From: Spirochaeta cellobiosiphila DSM 17781
Lineage (GTDB): Bacteria; Spirochaetota; Spirochaetia; DSM-17781
Reading direction: 5' to 3'
Assembly (NCBI RefSeq): GCF_000426705.1
Contig: NZ_KE384558.1
Coordinates: forward strand, 192,866 to 256,865
Length of the DNA: 64,000 nucleotides
Shown here: piece after piece, positions 3,589 to 12,876 of the stretch
How the letters are laid out: the number at the start of each line of letters is the position of its first letter
How positions within the stretch are numbered: position 1 is the stretch's first letter
Program-made: the position numbers and the translations under genes
The notes under the pieces: generated by a model
Databases searched by the model: none
Seen by the model: only the letters and a program-made list of their open reading frames with translations
What the model was told of the DNA's origin: nothing

Positions 3589-4635
3589 CTAGATACTTTG
3601 GTTTTTCTTGTTTTTGATATAAGTAAAGACACTTTGAAGAACAATGAAGAAACACAAAAGGGCTGATAAGACGATCTTGTTCCACCAGGAGGAAAGGGTT
3701 CCATCACAACGGATGAAGGTCTCTATCGTGGCTTTTATCAAAACACCAAAAAAGGTTCCTATCACTGTTCCCACCCCACCTGTGAGAAGGGTGCCTCCTA
3801 TAACCGCAGAGGCTATGGCTTCCATTTCAAAACCTCGTGCCTGTTCAACAAAACCACTAACCGTATTGAGGCAGAAGGCCACTCCTGCGAGAGCTGCCAG
3901 GAAGCCATTGAGAGTGTAGGTTAAAAGCTTAATCCGCTTTACATTCAGTCCCATGAGAAGGGCTGATTGTTCGTTACCTCCAATGGCAAACAGAGAACGA
4001 CCGAATTTGGTATAACGGCATATATACCAAACACTAAGCATAGCCACCAAGGCGATGATGACATTAGGGTGAACAAAGGGATAGAGTTTTATACCCCGTT
4101 TATTGACAACAGCTCCAAAGAATACTTTGATGCTTTTATGAGCCATACCGAGAAAATGTTCATTAGTGATGGCGATTTGTTCCACACTAATCATAGCTGT
4201 TAACCCTCTGGCAAAGAATAATCCTGCCAAGGTTACGATGAAAGGCTGGAGTTTTAAATAGGATATGAGCCAACCCTGGACAGCGCCAAAGATAATTCCA
4301 AACACGAGGACAAGGAAGATGGCCGGGTAGGCTCCCATTCCTTTGTTTTCCATTAAATCGGCCAGCATCATACAAACGACTCCAACAACGGAGCCTACAG
4401 AGATATCAATACCTCCTGTGATGAGTACCAAGGTCATACCTGAGGCGGCAATAATAAGACCGGCATTATCCATAAGCATATTAAAAAAGGTCTGCATGGT
4501 GCCGAAGTTCTGCTGTTCATACACAACCATTCCCACTAGATACATAAGGACAAACATCGAGATTGTTACTGTAAGGAGAAAGTTGTTCCCTCCCAATCGG
4601 GAACGAACACTTTTAAGCTTTGTCAGGCTTGGCAT
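3589..4635 (-). CDS. yjfF: Sugar ABC transporter permease, YjfF-like
   Basis: A BPD_transp_2 (RbsC/XylH family) permease with about 8-10 membrane helices. The hallmark segments GMTLVLITGGIDISVGSV and FAIGGNEQSALLMGLNV are present, followed by a glycine-rich ASAVIGGTLLTGGVGTVIG. I chose the ATG at 4635: it overlaps the upstream stop as TAATG and has an AAGGAGG ribosome site; a longer reading to 4686 lacks this. It is the last gene of the minus-strand importer operon and pairs with the YtfT-like permease as a heterodimeric channel. By analogy to Escherichia coli YtfQRT-YjfF, the substrate may be galactofuranose or a related sugar. Confidence 0.85.
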   Translation of the reverse strand: MPSLTKLKSVRSRLGGNNFLLTVTISMFVLMYLVGMVVYEQQNFGTMQTFFNMLMDNAGLIIAASGMTLVLITGGIDISVGSVVGVVCMMLADLMENKGMGAYPAIFLVLVFGIIFGAVQGWLISYLKLQPFIVTLAGLFFARGLTAMISVEQIAITNEHFLGMAHKSIKVFFGAVVNKRGIKLYPFVHPNVIIALVAMLSVWYICRYTKFGRSLFAIGGNEQSALLMGLNVKRIKLLTYTLNGFLAALAGVAFCLNTVSGFVEQARGFEMEAIASAVIGGTLLTGGVGTVIGTFFGVLIKATIETFIRCDGTLSSWWNKIVLSALLCFFIVLQSVFTYIKNKKNQSI

Positions 4636-5711
4636 TAGGCTGCCTCCTTGAGTTTTTGCTGTCTGACCTTCCATTGTACTCTCCAACGCTTGAGCTCTTC
4701 CGATTGGATGGCCACGATGAGAACTACAACTATAGCCTTATACACGGGTAATTGGTCTGCTGTGACCCCCATTGCATACAGGCTTGTGGTTAAGGCTTGT
4801 ATGGTAATGGCGCCTATAACGGATCCTGCTAAACTGAACTTTCCCCCGGCTAGGCTATTACCTCCTAGGGCCACTGCGAGAATGGCATCCAGTTCCATAT
4901 AGAGACCGATATTGTTGGCATCACTAGAATAGATACGGCTTGCTGCAATGAGCCCCGCCAGTCCTGAGGCAAAGCTACAGAAAACATAGGTCAAGAAGAT
5001 GATCAGGGTGGAGTTGATTCCTACCAGCCGAACCGCTTTAGGATTGATTCCTACAGATTGTATATAGAGTCCTAAGGCTGTCTTCTTCAGAATGAGCCAG
5101 GTGATGAGCACAAAGGCCACCGCTATAAAGACGGGCGTAGGGACCACTATATGGGGGAGATAGCCTCCAATGTTTTTGAAGGACTCCATTCTCACATAGA
5201 GTATTTGTCCTGGAACCATCTTATCACCGATTTCCCTGGCACTTATGAGCTGTGCCATCCCCCTTCCTGCTGTAAATAGGATCAAAGTTGCAACCATTGG
5301 CTGGATTTTTAGATTAGCAACAAGGAAGCCATTAAAAGCTCCGCATAAGGCTCCTGCTAATAGACAAAGGAGTATAGCCACAATCATAGGAACGGCATAG
5401 GCTTCATAACTGGATCCCAGTAGGCGGACACAAACGGCACCAGCTACAGCGGCTACGGCTCCTACGGATATATCTGCCCCCCGAGAGGAGGCGACAACCA
5501 ACGTCATCCCTACGGCCATGATACAGAGTTCAGAACCTCTGTTAATGATATCAATGAGATACCCATAGAGCACTCCATTCTGGATAGATATTTTGAAGAA
5601 GGAGGGGGTAATGATCACATTGATTATGAGCATTAATCCCAAGGCAAAGAGGGGAAGAAATAAGGGCTTCCTTAGGATGTCCTGGAATTTAGTTTTTACT
5701 GTATTGTTCAC
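4635..5711 (-). CDS. ytfT: Sugar ABC transporter permease, YtfT-like
   Basis: A 358-aa inner-membrane permease of the RbsC/XylH family, with an N-terminal cytoplasmic segment and about 8-10 helices. Family motifs include GMTLVVASSRGADISVGAVA (the YtfT-like variant of the conserved first loop) and DAILAVALGGNSLAGGKFSL. The start is a GTG preceded by AGGAGG; it overlaps the ATPase gene by 23 nt, and its own stop overlaps the next permease start, which points to translational coupling. The protein forms the membrane channel with the YjfF-like partner. Confidence 0.85.
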   Translation of the reverse strand: MNNTVKTKFQDILRKPLFLPLFALGLMLIINVIITPSFFKISIQNGVLYGYLIDIINRGSELCIMAVGMTLVVASSRGADISVGAVAAVAGAVCVRLLGSSYEAYAVPMIVAILLCLLAGALCGAFNGFLVANLKIQPMVATLILFTAGRGMAQLISAREIGDKMVPGQILYVRMESFKNIGGYLPHIVVPTPVFIAVAFVLITWLILKKTALGLYIQSVGINPKAVRLVGINSTLIIFLTYVFCSFASGLAGLIAASRIYSSDANNIGLYMELDAILAVALGGNSLAGGKFSLAGSVIGAITIQALTTSLYAMGVTADQLPVYKAIVVVLIVAIQSEELKRWRVQWKVRQQKLKEAA

Positions 5712-7242
5712 TATGGGCTCCTCCTGCTATGGCTGACAGAACAGCTTGTTGATCAAGATTTTTATTATTGAGCTCTCCTACTTTTTGACCATCCCTTAAG
5801 ACACAGAGACGATTGACAGTACGGAGCATTTCATCGATTTCGGAACTGATGAACATAATGGTCATCCCTTCCTTGGCTAACTTTAATACCAGCTTCTGGA
5901 TTTCTGTTTTTGTACCCACATCGATCCCTCTGGTTGGTTCATCAAGGATGAGAAAGTCTGGATTGGTTATTAACCAACGACCCAGGATGACCTTTTGCTG
6001 GTTCCCTCCTGATAGTTGATTGACTAGGGTTTCCGGAGAAGGAGCTTTGATTTTAAGAGCTTTGATGAACTTTTCTGATAGTTCATTTTGTTTATCTCTG
6101 GGTAATAAACGGAAGACTCCCGTCTTGGCCTGAAGGGCAATGATCATGTTTTCCCTGATTGTCAGGTCCCCGATGATACTTTCTTCCTTTCTATCTTCCG
6201 GAAGGAAGGCCATTCCCTGCTTCATAGAATCAATAGGGGCCATACTTTTGAGAGGATGGTCTTTGTAGTATAATTCTCCCTGATCCGGCTGGTCTGCCCC
6301 ATAAAGGGATCTGGCCAGTTCTGAACGTCCTGAACCTAAAAGGCCGGTTAATCCTATGACTTCCCCTTTATGAATCTGTAGATCAAAGGGCTTTATAGTT
6401 CCTTTCTTCCCTAGACCAATTGCTTTAACCATAAGGGGTTGGGTGTTTGTCTCTTCTAATTCCTGTTCTTCCTGCTTGATGGAGGCCAGGTCGTCAAAAT
6501 CGTGGCCCAGCATTTTGGCTACCAGTTGTACCCGAGGTAGTTCCTGTACAGAATATCGCCCTACAAGTTCACCATTTCTTAATACGGTTATGGTGTCGCA
6601 TATCTCATACACCTGTTCTAAAAAGTGGGTGACGAAAATAATTCCTACACCCCTTTCTTTTAGATTTTTCATCACTTCAAATAGTTTTTGAACTTCTAAT
6701 TCATCTAAAGAACTGGTCGGTTCATCTAGAATGAGAACTTTACATTGAAAGTCTATAGCTCTGGCAATGGCTACCATTTGCTGAATAGCTACGGAGTATT
6801 CCCCCAGATTCTTTGTTACATCTATATTGTCTAAACCAACGGCTTTCAATATGGATTGAGCTTGTTGGTTCATTTTTTTCCAGTTAACACCGCCTATTAG
6901 GTTAAGAGGGTGACGTCCTATAAATATGTTTTCTGCCACTGAGATGTTAGGACAGAGATTAACTTCCTGATAAACAGGGCTGATTCCTAATTTCTGAGCC
7001 TCCCCGGGATTATGGGGAAAGACGGGATTCCCTTGTCCTTCCAGTAAAATGGAACCTTCTTCCATTGTACAAACCCCAGTAAGCACTTTGATCAGAGTAC
7101 TTTTACCAGCCCCGTTTTCCCCCATTAAGGCATGGATCTCTCCAGCATTAAGGGTGAAGTCCACATTAGACAAGGCTTTAACGCCAGGAAAGGTTTTACT
7201 GATATTTACCATGCGTAGGACGGGTTGGATTTCTTTTGTCAT
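5689..7242 (-). CDS. ytfR: Sugar ABC transporter ATP-binding protein, YtfR-like (two ATPase domains)
   Basis: A 517-aa tandem ATPase of the carbohydrate-uptake type 2 class. Domain 1 has Walker A GENGAGKST, an unusual signature region EYSVAIQQMVAIARA and Walker B LILDEPTSSLD. Domain 2 has a degenerate Walker A (GLLGSGRSELAR), signature LSGGNQQKVILGR and Walker B LILDEPTRGIDVG. This asymmetric layout is normal for RbsA/XylG/YtfR. It energises the YtfT/YjfF channel from the cytoplasm. The ribosome site AAGGAGA is 8 nt before the ATG. A hairpin separates it from the upstream binding-protein gene. Confidence 0.9.
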   Translation of the reverse strand: MTKEIQPVLRMVNISKTFPGVKALSNVDFTLNAGEIHALMGENGAGKSTLIKVLTGVCTMEEGSILLEGQGNPVFPHNPGEAQKLGISPVYQEVNLCPNISVAENIFIGRHPLNLIGGVNWKKMNQQAQSILKAVGLDNIDVTKNLGEYSVAIQQMVAIARAIDFQCKVLILDEPTSSLDELEVQKLFEVMKNLKERGVGIIFVTHFLEQVYEICDTITVLRNGELVGRYSVQELPRVQLVAKMLGHDFDDLASIKQEEQELEETNTQPLMVKAIGLGKKGTIKPFDLQIHKGEVIGLTGLLGSGRSELARSLYGADQPDQGELYYKDHPLKSMAPIDSMKQGMAFLPEDRKEESIIGDLTIRENMIIALQAKTGVFRLLPRDKQNELSEKFIKALKIKAPSPETLVNQLSGGNQQKVILGRWLITNPDFLILDEPTRGIDVGTKTEIQKLVLKLAKEGMTIMFISSEIDEMLRTVNRLCVLRDGQKVGELNNKNLDQQAVLSAIAGGAHSEQYSKN

Positions 7243-7267: not shown

Positions 7268-7294
7268 GATAGAGCCGAAGGTCTCGGCTCTATC
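7268..7294 (-). terminator. Intercistronic hairpin between binding-protein and ATPase genes
   Basis: An 11-bp perfect stem (GATAGAGCCGA / TCGGCTCTATC) with a 5-nt loop. On the minus strand no U-run follows, so it is better read as an mRNA-stabilising or partial-attenuation hairpin that raises binding protein over transporter than as a full terminator. Confidence 0.65.
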
Positions 7295-7306: not shown

Positions 7307-8293
7307 TTAGTATTTACGTGTAGGAAGCATGGCTGCTGCGTTAGATGTATCAAAGACATCTTCTTTGACATACATGATTTTGTCGACAGTTCCCCCGTTT
7401 TCCAAGGTTTGGATGATTTCCGCTACACGTGGTCCATGTAAGGGATTACATTCCACATCACAGTTTATTTCACCAGCTACCATTCGGTTAAAAGCTTCCT
7501 TAACCGCATCAAAGGAGATGATAATGATATCTTCACCAGGAACTTTACCTACAGCCTTGATAGCATCAATAGCTCCGAAGGCCATGTTGTCATTTTCAGC
7601 GATAACAACATCAATATCAGGATAAGCTTTTAGGAAGGATTCCATTACTTCCTGACCCTTAGACTGGGTAAATTCACCAGTTTGTTTCGCTAATAGTTTG
7701 TACTTTGGATTTTTGGCCAAACCTTCTGTAACACCCTTTGTTCTTCCTACCTGAGCAGAAGATCCAATGGTTCCTTGAAGAAGAACAATGTTTAACTCTT
7801 CATTGGCTCTTCCTTCTTTTTTCACATAGTCATTAAGCCATTTGATAGCATCTTGACCTTCTTTGAGGAAGTTACCACCAACCCAAGCTGTGTAAAGACT
7901 ATCATCAGAGAGATCCATTTGTCTGTCAGATAAGATAACAGGGATTCCCGCTTCTTTGGCTTCCTTAAGAACTGTTTCCCATCCTGTTTCCACAACTGGA
8001 GCTACTACAATATAGTCCACGTCTTGTTGGATGAAGTTCCTTATCGCTTTGATTTGGTTTTCCTGTTTTTGCTGGGCATCGTCAAATATGAGTTTGTACC
8101 CATTAGCTTCCACAAAGGTACTTTTAAATGATTCTGTATTGGCAGTTCTCCAATCAGATTCTGCTCCCACCTGGGCATAGCCGACCGTAATAAGACCATC
8201 CCCTTGTGAAGCTGCTTCTTTTTGTCCATTAGCAAAGACCATTGTGCATAAGAGCACCATTAGTCCCATTGAAAGAATAATCTTTCTTTTCAT
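7307..8293 (-). CDS. ytfQ: Periplasmic sugar-binding protein, YtfQ-like
   Basis: A 328-aa type I periplasmic-binding protein. An N-terminal signal peptide ends at MVFA and the mature protein begins NGQKEA, a start shared with other binding proteins in this window. The mature domain shows VGYAQVGAESDWRTANTESF, AQQKQENQIKAIRNFI, DYIVVAPVVETGW and GIPVILSDRQ, all close to YtfQ. It delivers sugar to YtfT/YjfF. The ribosome site is AAGGAGG. It begins the importer transcript, 119 nt after the response-regulator gene, and likely has its own promoter there. Confidence 0.87.
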   Translation of the reverse strand: MKRKIILSMGLMVLLCTMVFANGQKEAASQGDGLITVGYAQVGAESDWRTANTESFKSTFVEANGYKLIFDDAQQKQENQIKAIRNFIQQDVDYIVVAPVVETGWETVLKEAKEAGIPVILSDRQMDLSDDSLYTAWVGGNFLKEGQDAIKWLNDYVKKEGRANEELNIVLLQGTIGSSAQVGRTKGVTEGLAKNPKYKLLAKQTGEFTQSKGQEVMESFLKAYPDIDVVIAENDNMAFGAIDAIKAVGKVPGEDIIIISFDAVKEAFNRMVAGEINCDVECNPLHGPRVAEIIQTLENGGTVDKIMYVKEDVFDTSNAAAMLPTRKY

Positions 8294-8354
8294 TAGTATC
8301 CCTCCTTAAGGATTTAGAAGAATAGGCTAAGCCCGCTTTTCTAATCCGTACATG

Positions 8355-8414
8355 AGATATTTTCTGGTAATTATTTCAAGTTTTTCCTTAGTTTTTCAAA
8401 AGGTTAGATATTTT
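8355..8414. repeat. Pair of 9-bp direct repeats upstream of the ytfQ-like gene
   Basis: AGATATTTT occurs at 8355-8363 and 8406-8414, 51 bp apart, in the short gap before the importer operon. AraC-type response regulators often bind direct repeats, so these are possible sites for the adjacent YesN-like protein. The sequence is AT-rich and the match could be chance. Confidence 0.3.
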
Positions 8415-9978
8415 ACGTGAGAGTTGTGTTTTTTTCTGATCTGAACTCTCTAGGAGATATGGAGGTCGTTTTTTTGAAGATAAAACTAAAGTAATGGGGA
8501 TCACTAAAGCCTACTTCGTATCCAATATCACTACTTCGCTTGTCTGTCGTTAATAATAGATACTTAGCCCGATCGATGCGCATGTTAGTGACATATTCAA
8601 TAAAAGTGACTCCCATTTCCTGAGCAAACACTGTACTGAAGTGGTTAGGGCTCACTTTAACAAACTCCGCCACCATGTGAAGAGATAGATTGGTATCTGT
8701 ATATTGCCCATCAATGAAGCGTTTGGCCCTCTGCACAAGGGAGTAGTGTTTGTGTTTATCATGGGAATCTCTGTATCTGGTTATGGTGAGAATTAGTTCC
8801 TGGATGTGATGACAGAACTGATCTTTGCTCTGCACTATAGATTGTTGCCTTTCCTTTTGTAGATAACCGGGAATAATCTCTTCTGGATTATCACCCATAT
8901 CTACGATCATTTCAGAGGCTGTCACTAATAGGGAACCTAATAAATAATTGCATATAAAGCTGGAATGGCCGGGAATGGATTCGAGGAACTCCTTGTAACC
9001 CTTAATGAGTTCATCAACGTCTTTTCCCTGGATATAAGGTAGTTTATCTCCTAACTTGGCCGCTTTGATCGGGATTAGTGATAAGACTTCCCTGTCTGAG
9101 TGAGGGATCAGCTGGTCATCCCCTAGATTCCTGAGAGCTCCTTCGTAGGAGAGAGGAAGCTCTGTTATGCGATCCACAGGTGTTCCCCTTCCTATAATGA
9201 GTTGGCAATGGCTGTTTTTCCCTACCTTTTGCTGGATCTCATTAAGAATGACTTCCAGACGATCCCTGATATCAATAGAGGTTCTTTGCTTTATAAGTAG
9301 TATCTGACGTTCAGCTCCCTGGGAGAATATGATTGTGTCCTGGAGGTCTCTGAGCACTTTTTTGAGCATGAGTCTTGTCTGGATGAGTTCTTGGGAATAC
9401 CCTTCCTGGGCATTCAGATCAATGATTGTAATGACATACTTTTTGGCAATGAGATCGATACCCATTTCTTTAGATTGCTCTACAGCATTGGTAAAAGGGA
9501 TAAGTCCCGCCACCAGATCATTAAGCCATTCTTCCCGTCTGATGATGGTTGTTTGGATAATCTGCTGTCGAAGGCTCTTGATATCATTTTGCTGCTCTAT
9601 TTCTGTCTGTATTTGCTGGGCTACCTGATTAAGGGTTTGAAGTAATTCGGTAGAACTAAAGGGCTTGAGTAGGTAATCCTCGACTCCAATGGCTATGGCT
9701 TCTTTGGCATATTGGAACTCATCATGTCCTGATAGGATGATGATTTTAATGGAGGGATGGTTGCTCTTTACCATACGAGCCAGGGATAAACCATCAAGGA
9801 AGGGCATTCTGATATCTGTGAGCAATATGTCAGGTTTTAGATCTTCTAATAAGGGCAGTGCTGTCTCTCCATCAGAAGCTTCACCCACCAGGGTAAAGTC
9901 TGTGCTCTGCCAATCAATGTTATTACGGATACCTTCACGTATAACAATTTCATCATCGACTAATAAGATTTTATACAT
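8413..9978 (-). CDS. YesN-type response regulator with AraC DNA-binding domain
   Basis: A 521-aa protein. The receiver (1-120) has the acidic VDDE near the N-terminus, phospho-acceptor Asp in LLTDIRMPFLDGL, and Lys in LLKPF, so it looks functional. A linker of about 280 residues follows, then an AraC double HTH (about 415-515; RIDRAKYLLLTTDKRSSDIGYEVGFS and HYFSFIFKKTTSISPREF, read as two pieces). The start overlaps the kinase gene by 8 nt, which indicates coupled translation. It most likely activates the YtfQ-type importer just downstream when phosphorylated by the neighbouring YesM/LytS-like kinase. Confidence 0.92.
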   Translation of the reverse strand: MYKILLVDDEIVIREGIRNNIDWQSTDFTLVGEASDGETALPLLEDLKPDILLTDIRMPFLDGLSLARMVKSNHPSIKIIILSGHDEFQYAKEAIAIGVEDYLLKPFSSTELLQTLNQVAQQIQTEIEQQNDIKSLRQQIIQTTIIRREEWLNDLVAGLIPFTNAVEQSKEMGIDLIAKKYVITIIDLNAQEGYSQELIQTRLMLKKVLRDLQDTIIFSQGAERQILLIKQRTSIDIRDRLEVILNEIQQKVGKNSHCQLIIGRGTPVDRITELPLSYEGALRNLGDDQLIPHSDREVLSLIPIKAAKLGDKLPYIQGKDVDELIKGYKEFLESIPGHSSFICNYLLGSLLVTASEMIVDMGDNPEEIIPGYLQKERQQSIVQSKDQFCHHIQELILTITRYRDSHDKHKHYSLVQRAKRFIDGQYTDTNLSLHMVAEFVKVSPNHFSTVFAQEMGVTFIEYVTNMRIDRAKYLLLTTDKRSSDIGYEVGFSDPHYFSFIFKKTTSISPREFRSEKNTTLT

Positions 9979-11443
9979 TATCCCTCCCTAAGGGCACAGA
10001 AAAGAGTACTTTTGTTCCCTTATTGTTTTCACTTTCTATTTGTATATGGGCTTTTTTATTATAAAAAAGTTCCAGGCGTTTGCTCACATTGTAGAGACCA
10101 TAGATGTCATGCCTGGATTCTGTTGTTATTCCATCAGCCATTTGTTTTAGAATCTGGTGGAGTCTTTCTTGTGTCATCCCCTTTCCATTGTCCTCTACCT
10201 GAAAGTAAAGGTTATTGTCATCCATCCATCCTTTAACTATAAGGGAGCCTTTTGATCTTTTATTCTTGATCCCATGATAGAGAGCATTCTCTACTATAGG
10301 TTGGAGTAGTAGCTTGATTATGGGATAATCTGCCATCTGGGGATCATAACTGATCTGATAATCGAGGATGTCCCGGTAGCGGATCTTTTGAATGGTTAGG
10401 TAGGACCGAACATGTTCCAACTCTTCACCTACTGTGATCCAATCTTCCCCTTTGCTAAGGGAAATGCGAAAGAAATTGGAAAAGGCTCTTGTTATATCAA
10501 TCACCTGATCATGCTGCTGAGCTTCTGCTAACCAGATGATGGTATCTAAAGTATTGTATAAAAAATGGGGTGTGATCTGGGCCTGGAGGGCATTCATTTC
10601 TGATTTTTGACGATTCCGTTGTTCTTCTATATTGCTTTGTATGAGCTCTTGGATACGGACAGCCATAACGTTCAGGTTTTCTGTTAGTAAGTCCAGTTCT
10701 TTTACCTGGGGAAGGGGCATCCGAATGTTAAGATCTCCTTCGGCAATGCGTTGGGACATCTTTTCTAGATTTTGTATGGGGCTATTGATATTGAGAGCTA
10801 CTGACCTTTGGGCAAAGATTGCATATAAGGTTACTAACAGGAGGATGATCAACTGGAATAGAACAATTATCTTAGTCGATTCTTTGATATTCTCATTAAT
10901 TGCAGCTGTAGATTCTATCTCAAGGACAATGAAATCCTGCAGTACATCAGATACCAAAGCGGAAACACTCCGGATTTCATCAAGTATTTGCTCATTTTCC
11001 GCCACAGGATATTTTTGCTCTATTTGTAGGCCCATACGGTCAACGTATTGCTTGAGTGTTTTAACTGCTCTTTGGGCAACGGCTAGCATTTCTCTGTTTT
11101 TTTGGACCTGAGTTGTCTGTAGTATGTCCTCCAAACGTCGATTAATGTCATTAAGGATTAGATATTGCTCTCCCTGACCAAACTTTTTCTTTCCTGAAAA
11201 GATATCCCAGATCTCATTGGTTATGCTGGTTTTGACGATTTGATTGAGTTGGTTTGTTTTACTGACATTAGTAATGATTTTGTCATAACGCAGGGTTTGC
11301 AGTACTACGCTAGCTACACTGATGATAGAGGGTATAAGTAATAAGGAAATGATAATCACATAGGAGTTTTTGATTTTCTTCTTAATACTATAGGATTTGA
11401 GAAAAGGAAGCAGCCTTTCTACAAGGAGAACAAAACGGCTCAT
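9971..11443 (-). CDS. YesM/LytS-like sensor histidine kinase
   Basis: A 490-aa membrane kinase. TM1 lies at about 27-48, then an extracytoplasmic helical region of about 150 residues, TM2 at about 190-212, a HAMP domain, the His_kinase segment QAQITPHFLYNTLDTIIW with the phosphorylated His, and a HATPase domain (VENALYHGIKN, then DNGKGM). The extracytoplasmic part has no recognisable sugar-binding fold, which fits sensing through the binding-protein lipoprotein encoded immediately upstream with only 1 nt between the genes. The layout matches LytS-type kinases that read sugar through a dedicated binding protein. Confidence 0.92.
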   Translation of the reverse strand: MSRFVLLVERLLPFLKSYSIKKKIKNSYVIIISLLLIPSIISVASVVLQTLRYDKIITNVSKTNQLNQIVKTSITNEIWDIFSGKKKFGQGEQYLILNDINRRLEDILQTTQVQKNREMLAVAQRAVKTLKQYVDRMGLQIEQKYPVAENEQILDEIRSVSALVSDVLQDFIVLEIESTAAINENIKESTKIIVLFQLIILLLVTLYAIFAQRSVALNINSPIQNLEKMSQRIAEGDLNIRMPLPQVKELDLLTENLNVMAVRIQELIQSNIEEQRNRQKSEMNALQAQITPHFLYNTLDTIIWLAEAQQHDQVIDITRAFSNFFRISLSKGEDWITVGEELEHVRSYLTIQKIRYRDILDYQISYDPQMADYPIIKLLLQPIVENALYHGIKNKRSKGSLIVKGWMDDNNLYFQVEDNGKGMTQERLHQILKQMADGITTESRHDIYGLYNVSKRLELFYNKKAHIQIESENNKGTKVLFSVPLGRDNV

Positions 11444-11444
11444 C

Positions 11445-12446
11445 CTAATAGCCTCTGGGAGGCAGTTTGCTTAGATCATCCCCTTCCTTAAAGACTCCTT
11501 CATTCATATGAATAAGGCGGGGTATGGTTTCTCCATTAGCCAATTGTTTCGCCAGATCCATTATGACCGGACCTGTTTCTGGATTACATTCAATAACACA
11601 ATTCACCTCACCTTTTTTAAGAGCGTCAATAGCTGCTTGTTCTGCATCAATGGTGATAATTGTGATATCAGTGCCCGGACGGATGTTCTTTTCTTTTATG
11701 GCATCAATAGCTCCTAAGGTCATCCCATCGTTATGACTATAAAGGACATCAATATTTTCGATATTATCAAGGATCCGGGACATGATCTCATACCCCTTGG
11801 AACGAAGGAAGTCCCCCGATTCTGTATGTACTATCTGGAAACCTTTATGCCCTTCTAACTCATGGCGAAAGCCATTGGCTCTATCTATTACGCAGGAGGC
11901 CCCTTCTGTTCCGGATATCTCAACAATTCTTATAGTATCCCGGGAATCCTGTTCTTTATATTTATTTAAGAGGAACTTTCCAGCTTCCCGTCCTTCCTGA
12001 TAACTATCTGTACCCACGAATCCTGCGTAGAGGGAAGGATCCTTAGTTACTATCTTACGATCGGTAATGAGAACAGGAATACCTGCTGCTTTCGCTTCCC
12101 TGAGAACGTTATCCCAACCGTCGGCTACAATGGGTACAAAAGCAATCACATCTACCTGATAGACTATAAAAGAACGGATGGCTTTGATCTGCTTCTCCTG
12201 CTTTTGCTCTGCATTTTCGAAGAGGAGTTGAACTCCTTGATCTTCAGCTGCCATTTTTATTGATTCTGAGTTATAAGTCCGCCAACTACTTTCTGCACCA
12301 ATTTGAGAAAAGCCAAGAATAAGAGATGGTTCTTTATGATCTTTGCTGGTGGTATCTTTGCCTATAGAACAGGAGGGAAGTAGAATTATAATGAAAAAGA
12401 ACAGTAGATAGGTCAGCAAATGATGTAAAGTCGGGCTGATCTTCAT
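11445..12446 (-). CDS. Lipid-anchored YtfQ-like sugar-binding protein, probable sensory subunit
   Basis: A 333-aa type I binding protein with a lipoprotein signal (hydrophobic run ending LLPSC, Cys at about 26). It is a clear paralogue of the YtfQ-like protein in the same locus: compare GFSQIGAESSWRTYNSES, EQKQEKQIKAIRSFI and GIPVLITDRK with their counterparts. It is transcribed first, 1 nt ahead of the kinase, whereas the transport binding protein sits after the regulator. In Clostridium beijerinckii the XylFII lipoprotein binds xylose and activates the LytS kinase; this gene has the same position and form, so a sensor role is likely. Transport use cannot be excluded. Confidence 0.87.
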   Translation of the reverse strand: MKISPTLHHLLTYLLFFFIIILLPSCSIGKDTTSKDHKEPSLILGFSQIGAESSWRTYNSESIKMAAEDQGVQLLFENAEQKQEKQIKAIRSFIVYQVDVIAFVPIVADGWDNVLREAKAAGIPVLITDRKIVTKDPSLYAGFVGTDSYQEGREAGKFLLNKYKEQDSRDTIRIVEISGTEGASCVIDRANGFRHELEGHKGFQIVHTESGDFLRSKGYEIMSRILDNIENIDVLYSHNDGMTLGAIDAIKEKNIRPGTDITIITIDAEQAAIDALKKGEVNCVIECNPETGPVIMDLAKQLANGETIPRLIHMNEGVFKEGDDLSKLPPRGY

Positions 12447-12876
12447 GAATATTCCTTGTATGACTTATTATTTGTTTATTTTACTATCCCTTTTCAAAGT
12501 CTAACAAGGAAAAGTTTGTGTTTGTTTGATATCCGTGTATCTCCTCAATTACACTTAAAAAAAAGAGAGAGGATAAGCATAGAAGGAATAATTTATATAC
12601 TGATATAGATTTACAGGTATTAAGTAATACTTCAGCTAATGGGAAGTTCCTTATATAGTCGATTTTCCGCAAGTAATCCGAACTAATTGGATCTTTTAAA
12701 ATGGAGAATTTATAGTTAGTCTGGAGGACTCATTCTCATATTGTTGCTAGATGGGACAAGCTATGTTTTACTGTTCAATGAAGGGATAGGGTGATTCTAT
12801 TTCCTCATTTACTGCAAAGGAAAAATAAGCTATAGTTCAGTAAAATACTAGATATAATTAATCAAGGGGAAAGCCG
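12447..12876. other. 430-bp intergenic region between divergent sensory operon and tetR-like gene
   Basis: AT-rich. It must hold the promoters for the minus-strand sensory/importer operon and the plus-strand TetR gene. A 62-codon minus-strand frame (12484-12672) has no ribosome site or recognisable similarity and is not called. No strong hairpin or repeat was seen. Confidence 0.5.

Follow-up and report, generated by a model that had tools for sequence, protein, structure and literature searches.

Introduction

The AraPST system of Geobacillus stearothermophilus, which is concerned with arabinose, is encoded by genes for a binding protein, a kinase and an AraC-type regulator, located directly 5' of an ABC importer that has a binding protein of its own. 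We know of no 40-bp element in it resembling the one described below. In XylFII-LytS-YesN of Clostridium beijerinckii (5XSJ, 5XSD, 5XSS), a tethered binding protein is likewise combined with a helical-bundle kinase and a regulator. Sugar-binding domains of related fold serve signalling also in BT1754 of Bacteroides (2X7X, from whose title this role is taken) and in GanP of Geobacillus (6GQ0/6GT9). AraPST is named in PMC4194401, and the same gene order has been tabulated for Geobacillus arabinose clusters (PMC4428132, Table 6). In CuaDSR of Ruminiclostridium cellulolyticum, the dedicated protein CuaD binds the extracellular domain of the kinase, whereas the transport protein CuaA does not, and a neighbouring importer operon is controlled (PMC10384115).

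The locus described here, found in a 64,000-nt stretch of Spirochaeta cellobiosiphila DNA (the window), resembles these systems to different degrees. It has the gene order of AraPST, and an importer with its own binding protein; the likeness to this arabinose cluster is one of gene order, and the host of AraPST, unlike that of our system, is Gram-positive. As in CuaDSR, a second binding protein appears to be dedicated to signalling, but CuaDSR responds to cellobiose and its importer and binding protein belong to another family. BT1754 is fused to its kinase and GanP binds glucose/galactose, whereas the sensor in the window is a separate protein with a furanose-type pocket. The fold and pocket residues of GafA/YtfQ furanose proteins (2VK2, 5OCP, 6HBD/6HBM; PMC10191376) recur in both binding proteins of the window; known members of that family serve transport, whereas the sensor clade defined below, which scores beneath the NCBIfam YtfQ cut-off, is putatively assigned to signalling. 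For spirochetes, treponemes and relatives of Sphaerochaeta included, the literature searched describes no comparable circuit.

Organization of the locus

The features of the locus, listed in the order of transcription, are as follows.

11445..12446, minus strand: sensor binding protein, GafA/YtfQ-like, predicted lipoprotein (Peripla_BP_4; lipobox LPSC)
9971..11443, minus strand: histidine kinase, YesM-type, 490 aa (HAMP, His_kinase PF06580, HATPase_c)
8413..9978, minus strand: YesN-type response regulator, 521 aa (Response_reg, AraC-type HTH)
8344..8383, minus strand: 40-bp element with CTCATGTACGGAT at its end, predicted regulator binding site, 5' of the importer
7307..8293, minus strand: transport binding protein, GafA/YtfQ-like, soluble type (signal peptide without lipobox)
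5689..7242, minus strand: importer ATPase, YtfR-like (best NCBIfam model YtfR)
4635..5711, minus strand: importer permease, YtfT-like (best NCBIfam model YtfT)
3589..4686, minus strand: importer permease, YjfF-like (best NCBIfam model YjfF)

The sensor gene ends 1 nt before the kinase gene, the kinase gene shares 8 nt with the regulator gene, and a gap of 119 nt follows before the gene of the transport binding protein, with which the importer of the YtfQ/R/T-YjfF type begins (8293-3589, minus strand). The first-pass annotation had placed a lipoprotein, a kinase and a regulator before a transport binding protein and importer, and both positions and order proved to be as claimed. Its description of the lipoprotein as a lipid-anchored paralogue of the transport protein, 1 nt away from the kinase gene, is also borne out, the anchor being a lipobox prediction: in this protein of 333 aa, the LPSC motif is preceded by a hydrophobic stretch. 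The NCBIfam models YtfQ, YtfR, YtfT and YjfF fit the importer best, although the curated cut-off was reached by none of its proteins. A scan for promoter and terminator consensus sequences gave no matches above those in shuffled sequence. A strong 11-bp inverted repeat occurs between the transport binding-protein and ATPase genes (7268-7294) and perhaps sets the relative expression of these two genes.

Conservation of the module in spirochetes

Among 60 genomes searched, six besides the window's own encode full-length orthologues of the kinase, 57-59% identical to it with the sensor domain included; the match to the remaining kinases was mostly confined to the catalytic half. A scan of genome contigs, using patterns of limited recall outside spirochetes, yielded 51 kinase-orthologue loci, almost throughout from spirochetes with a few from Clostridia. 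The order sensor-kinase-regulator, which the first-pass annotation had proposed to look for in other spirochetes, is kept in 44 of them. The seven loci without one of the parts are explained mostly by a contig end. In L077 a run of N is responsible, and the kinase-regulator fusion that seemed to be present there was rejected as its artefact. Only in L041 is the absence real: a kinase and a regulator (10001-12698) stand without a sensor gene or importer nearby, as a degenerate or rewired copy. The kinase gene of L073 (5195-6678) is made up of two open frames, due to either a frameshift or an assembly error.

The kinase sensor domain was found in 42 of 393 sampled spirochete genomes, representing 13 of 168 genera, a frequency that does not support the earlier opinion that such a system is unusual in a spirochete. 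The arrangement of the module is neither a product of chance nor rare. Where the importer was seen, it was located downstream in the same orientation in 17 loci and was convergent in nine, so that transcription as one unit is not conserved. The case for the previously proposed single transcript is weakened further by the importer's own conserved upstream element.

Two other arrangements were encountered. In three clostridial loci (L088, L091 and L092), kinases that are less close, but whose sensor domain is related, adjoin a YtfQ-type importer gene, with a regulator gene also seen in two of them and a separate sensor protein absent from the flanking sequence covered; in these loci, sensing and transport may both be tasks of the transport protein. 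The second arrangement is common in spirochetes (L008, L010, L012, L015, L019 and similar loci) and comprises a regulator, a kinase of about 590 aa, a binding protein about 24% identical to the sensor in the window and, often, an ABC ATPase.

Sensor and transport binding proteins

The two binding proteins of the window are 42% identical over 295 residues, and each finds its best solved matches among furanose proteins of the YtfQ type. With 272 and 297 bits they miss the NCBIfam YtfQ equivalog cut-off (510 bits) and, judged by these scores, are relatives of YtfQ and not its equivalogs. A maximum-likelihood tree places the sensors in a single clade, to which no transport protein belongs (support 93/92 for the whole clade and 100/99 for its spirochete part). 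A lipobox-like motif was predicted in 44 of 47 sensors, the other three having a hydrophobic N-terminus without that Cys, and in nine of 31 transport proteins, three of these nine being from Clostridia and one, L067, doubtful. The separate clade and the predicted lipobox both favour the earlier suggestion of a sensor function for the first binding protein, as a paralogue dedicated to this task and anchored in the membrane. The sensors of spirochetes share about 55-70% identity with that of the window, while the identity of transport proteins to their counterpart ranges from about 32 to 82%.

The furanose pocket (W55, R56, D129, R130, R189, F213, N239, D267 and E286) is invariant or nearly so in 48 sensors, and its conserved residues are present in both binding proteins of the window. 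Near the pocket, the transport protein differs from the sensor by R215Q, H238E and D212E, and therefore the two proteins may differ in the sugar bound. In divergent transport proteins of the Sphaerochaeta group and some treponemes, W is changed to Y, F to W and E to Q, whereas the sensors accompanying them keep the pocket. An AlphaFold model of the sensor, made with homologues (pLDDT 87.7), matched best MSMEG_1712 with D-galactofuranose or L-arabinofuranose, followed by 5OCP and 2VK2.

The kinase sensor domain

The kinase consists of a membrane helix, an extracytoplasmic helical bundle, a second membrane helix, and HAMP, His_kinase and HATPase_c domains. In an AlphaFold model of the segment, made with homologues (pLDDT 90), it is all-helical, with four helices between membrane helices 1 and 2. 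A Foldseek search with this model matched LytSN of the XylFII-LytSN complex (5xsj_L) with a target TM-score of 0.87, the highest in the list shown, and an rmsd of 2.1 over 122 columns, at only about 9% identity; the list by E-value is headed by NarQ and not LytSN, and the weight of the match is limited by the resemblance of helical bundles to many folds. LytSN was found by this fold search only; it was not among the entries listed when PDB sequences were searched with the alignment of kinases. The name 'LytS-like', given to the kinase by the first-pass annotation, is not supported: Pfam gives only HAMP, His_kinase and HATPase_c, the canonical 5TM LytS domain being absent from this YesM-type protein, but the structure of the sensor domain does resemble LytS of the XylFII-LytS complex.

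In a comparison of distance matrices, computed without L073 with its split kinase gene, the kinase sensor domain correlated with the sensor protein at 0.92 and with the transport protein at 0.58; the partial correlations, given the regulator and the catalytic domain, were 0.58 and 0.29, respectively. By this measure, in which interaction and shared inheritance are not fully separable, the sensor protein appears to co-evolve with the extracytoplasmic domain of the kinase.

Prediction of the ligand

GafA/YtfQ proteins have identical pocket residues and differ subtly from one another; the ring is held between a Phe and a Trp, which are named among the pocket residues together with Asp and Arg, and galactofuranose is excluded in the Shewanella protein by Phe40 (PMC10191376). 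The equivalent position, mapped by our own alignment, is Asn in both proteins of the window and in MSMEG_1712, which binds both galactofuranose and arabinofuranose. The closest solved relatives bind L-arabinofuranose and D-galactofuranose alike (PMC10191376).

Flanks of seven of the 51 loci contain araA, whereas a frequency of one gene per 3.3 Mb would predict 0.12 (P is about 1e-10 if the loci are taken as independent, and about 1e-5 when the count is reduced to four lineages). Genes similar to araB adjoin several loci, L073 has an aldolase-II gene and L079 a GH43 gene, and in L062 a GH42 beta-galactosidase gene adjoins araB-araA. Further genomes also have araA/araB at the module (L104, L111 and L112), while no galactofuranosidase was identified among the neighbour genes scanned. 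In the window's own genome araA is not near the module; araBAD is located on a separate contig together with a ChvE-type importer. That region (L095, G000:C26:301000-318000) contains araB, araA and araD-like genes, a LacI-type regulator and the importer, identities that are a reading of the sequence, with a Pfam match for araA alone.

Several lineages have araA/araB in the flanks of the module, which makes L-arabinofuranose the probable ligand, with D-galactofuranose possible. Because the relatives bind both sugars and araA/araB are neighbours of the module, L-arabinose is at least as likely as galactofuranose, and the clear prediction of a galactofuranose ligand made in the first-pass annotation is weakened.

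The conserved 40-bp element

The sequence TCATGTAC forms the end of a conserved 40-bp element, which 29 spirochete loci have 5' of the importer. Exact copies of the 8-mer were present upstream of 24 of the 32 transport genes, with 0.1 expected, and upstream of none of the 46 sensor genes, for which reason autoregulation of the sensor operon through this element was rejected. A 40-bp matrix of the 29 sites gave leave-one-out scores of 21.7-45.1, and a maximum of 10 on reversed sequences; since the alignment was made on the TCATGTAC core, the information at the core is partly by construction. When held-out, non-duplicate loci were scanned, a site scoring more than 14 bits was present in 11 of 18, in every case just 5' of the importer binding-protein gene and nowhere else, although these are not 11 independent tests, because some of the loci are close relatives of training loci. 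At the 14-bit threshold no site was present in the other seven, mostly diverged treponeme-like systems. The element precedes the importer even where the binding protein of the latter is only about 33% identical.

Apart from importer promoters, the matrix found few sites: one before a ChvE-type importer (L060), one at the end of a contig, immediately behind the regulator gene (L065), and two without a clear target (L031 and L058). No element was found with it upstream of araA. The copy at 8344-8383 is the sole match in the window, and the rest of the genome gave no convincing further match; one candidate (C27:187488), with two mismatches, higher control counts and no adjacent importer, was rejected. 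In the regulator, mean identity is 67% in the HTH and 41% in the middle domain. The YesN-type regulator is presumably the protein that binds the element.

Discussion

We consider it very likely that the locus encodes a three-component sugar switch, composed of an anchored sensor, a kinase and a regulator, and leading through the 40-bp element to activation of the importer. Conservation of gene order, the sensor clade with its predicted anchor and pocket, the LytSN-like fold, the co-evolution and the promoter element were computed directly, whereas we infer that the lipoprotein touches the kinase and that the regulator binds the element, as well as the identity of the sugar and the sign of signalling. 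The lipid-anchored protein would reside at the membrane beside the helical-bundle sensor domain of the kinase and bind a furanose, most likely L-arabinofuranose and possibly D-galactofuranose. Closed and loaded, it would make the kinase dimer pack differently and alter its autophosphorylation; phosphate would then pass from the kinase to the YesN-type regulator, and the latter, acting at the element with the TCATGTAC end, would activate transcription of the GafABCD (YtfQRT-YjfF) importer. Such a mechanism has precedents in XylFII-LytS, CuaDSR and AraPST; what is new is the furanose type of the sensor, the sharing of one element and the replacement of importers. All likelihoods given here are judgements.

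The locus shares with XylFII-LytS a dedicated binding protein, a predicted tether, a LytSN-like bundle and a cognate AraC/YesN-type regulator alongside, and its arrangement matches this precedent, which the first-pass annotation had cited. It is very improbable, nonetheless, that the system is an orthologue of XylFII-LytS sensing D-xylose: its sensor, mostly lipid-anchored among its relatives and probably binding a different sugar, matches XylFII with an E-value of 2e-8 and GafA/YtfQ proteins with 1e-81, and its pocket is of the furanose type. Specificity for D-galactofuranose, as assumed earlier, is a less remote alternative, considering that E. coli YtfQ and MSMEG_1712 bind this sugar (2VK2, 6HBD) and that both proteins of the window share with MSMEG_1712 the Asn in place of Phe40. 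We still regard it as unlikely, as MSMEG_1712 binds both sugars, several lineages have araA/araB beside the module, no galactofuranosidase was identified among the neighbours scanned, and the element of L060 precedes a ChvE-type importer, the type found with araBAD in the window's genome.

A different possibility is that the lipoprotein is a second transport binding protein of the same importer, and that the kinase senses something else directly via its helical bundle. The furanose pocket common to both binding proteins would agree with this, as would the clostridial kinases adjoining a YtfQ-type importer with no separate sensor in the flanking sequence covered. Yet the lipoprotein gene lies directly 5' of the kinase gene and travels with it, being conserved while importers are replaced, its product is predicted to be anchored whereas transport proteins are mostly soluble, and the kinase domain is LytSN-like; hence, we find this possibility quite improbable and favour the signalling role of the lipoprotein.

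The circuit, including the DNA site in the importer promoter, is traceable through many spirochetes. Its sensor, kinase, regulator, DNA site and target importer make up a complete, testable sugar-sensing circuit in these bacteria, treponemes and Sphaerochaeta relatives among them, and the 40-bp element permits prediction of the regulon. The swapping of importers under a constant sensor is a natural experiment that bears on the maintenance of regulation when a transporter is replaced. A tentative reading, to which we give somewhat less than even weight, is that spirochetes detect short-lived L-arabinofuranose, fresh from plant polymers, by means of a furanose-specific transmembrane system. Its GafA-type sensor would have stayed the same, and the importers under its control would have been exchanged for ones with different pockets, each keeping the promoter element.
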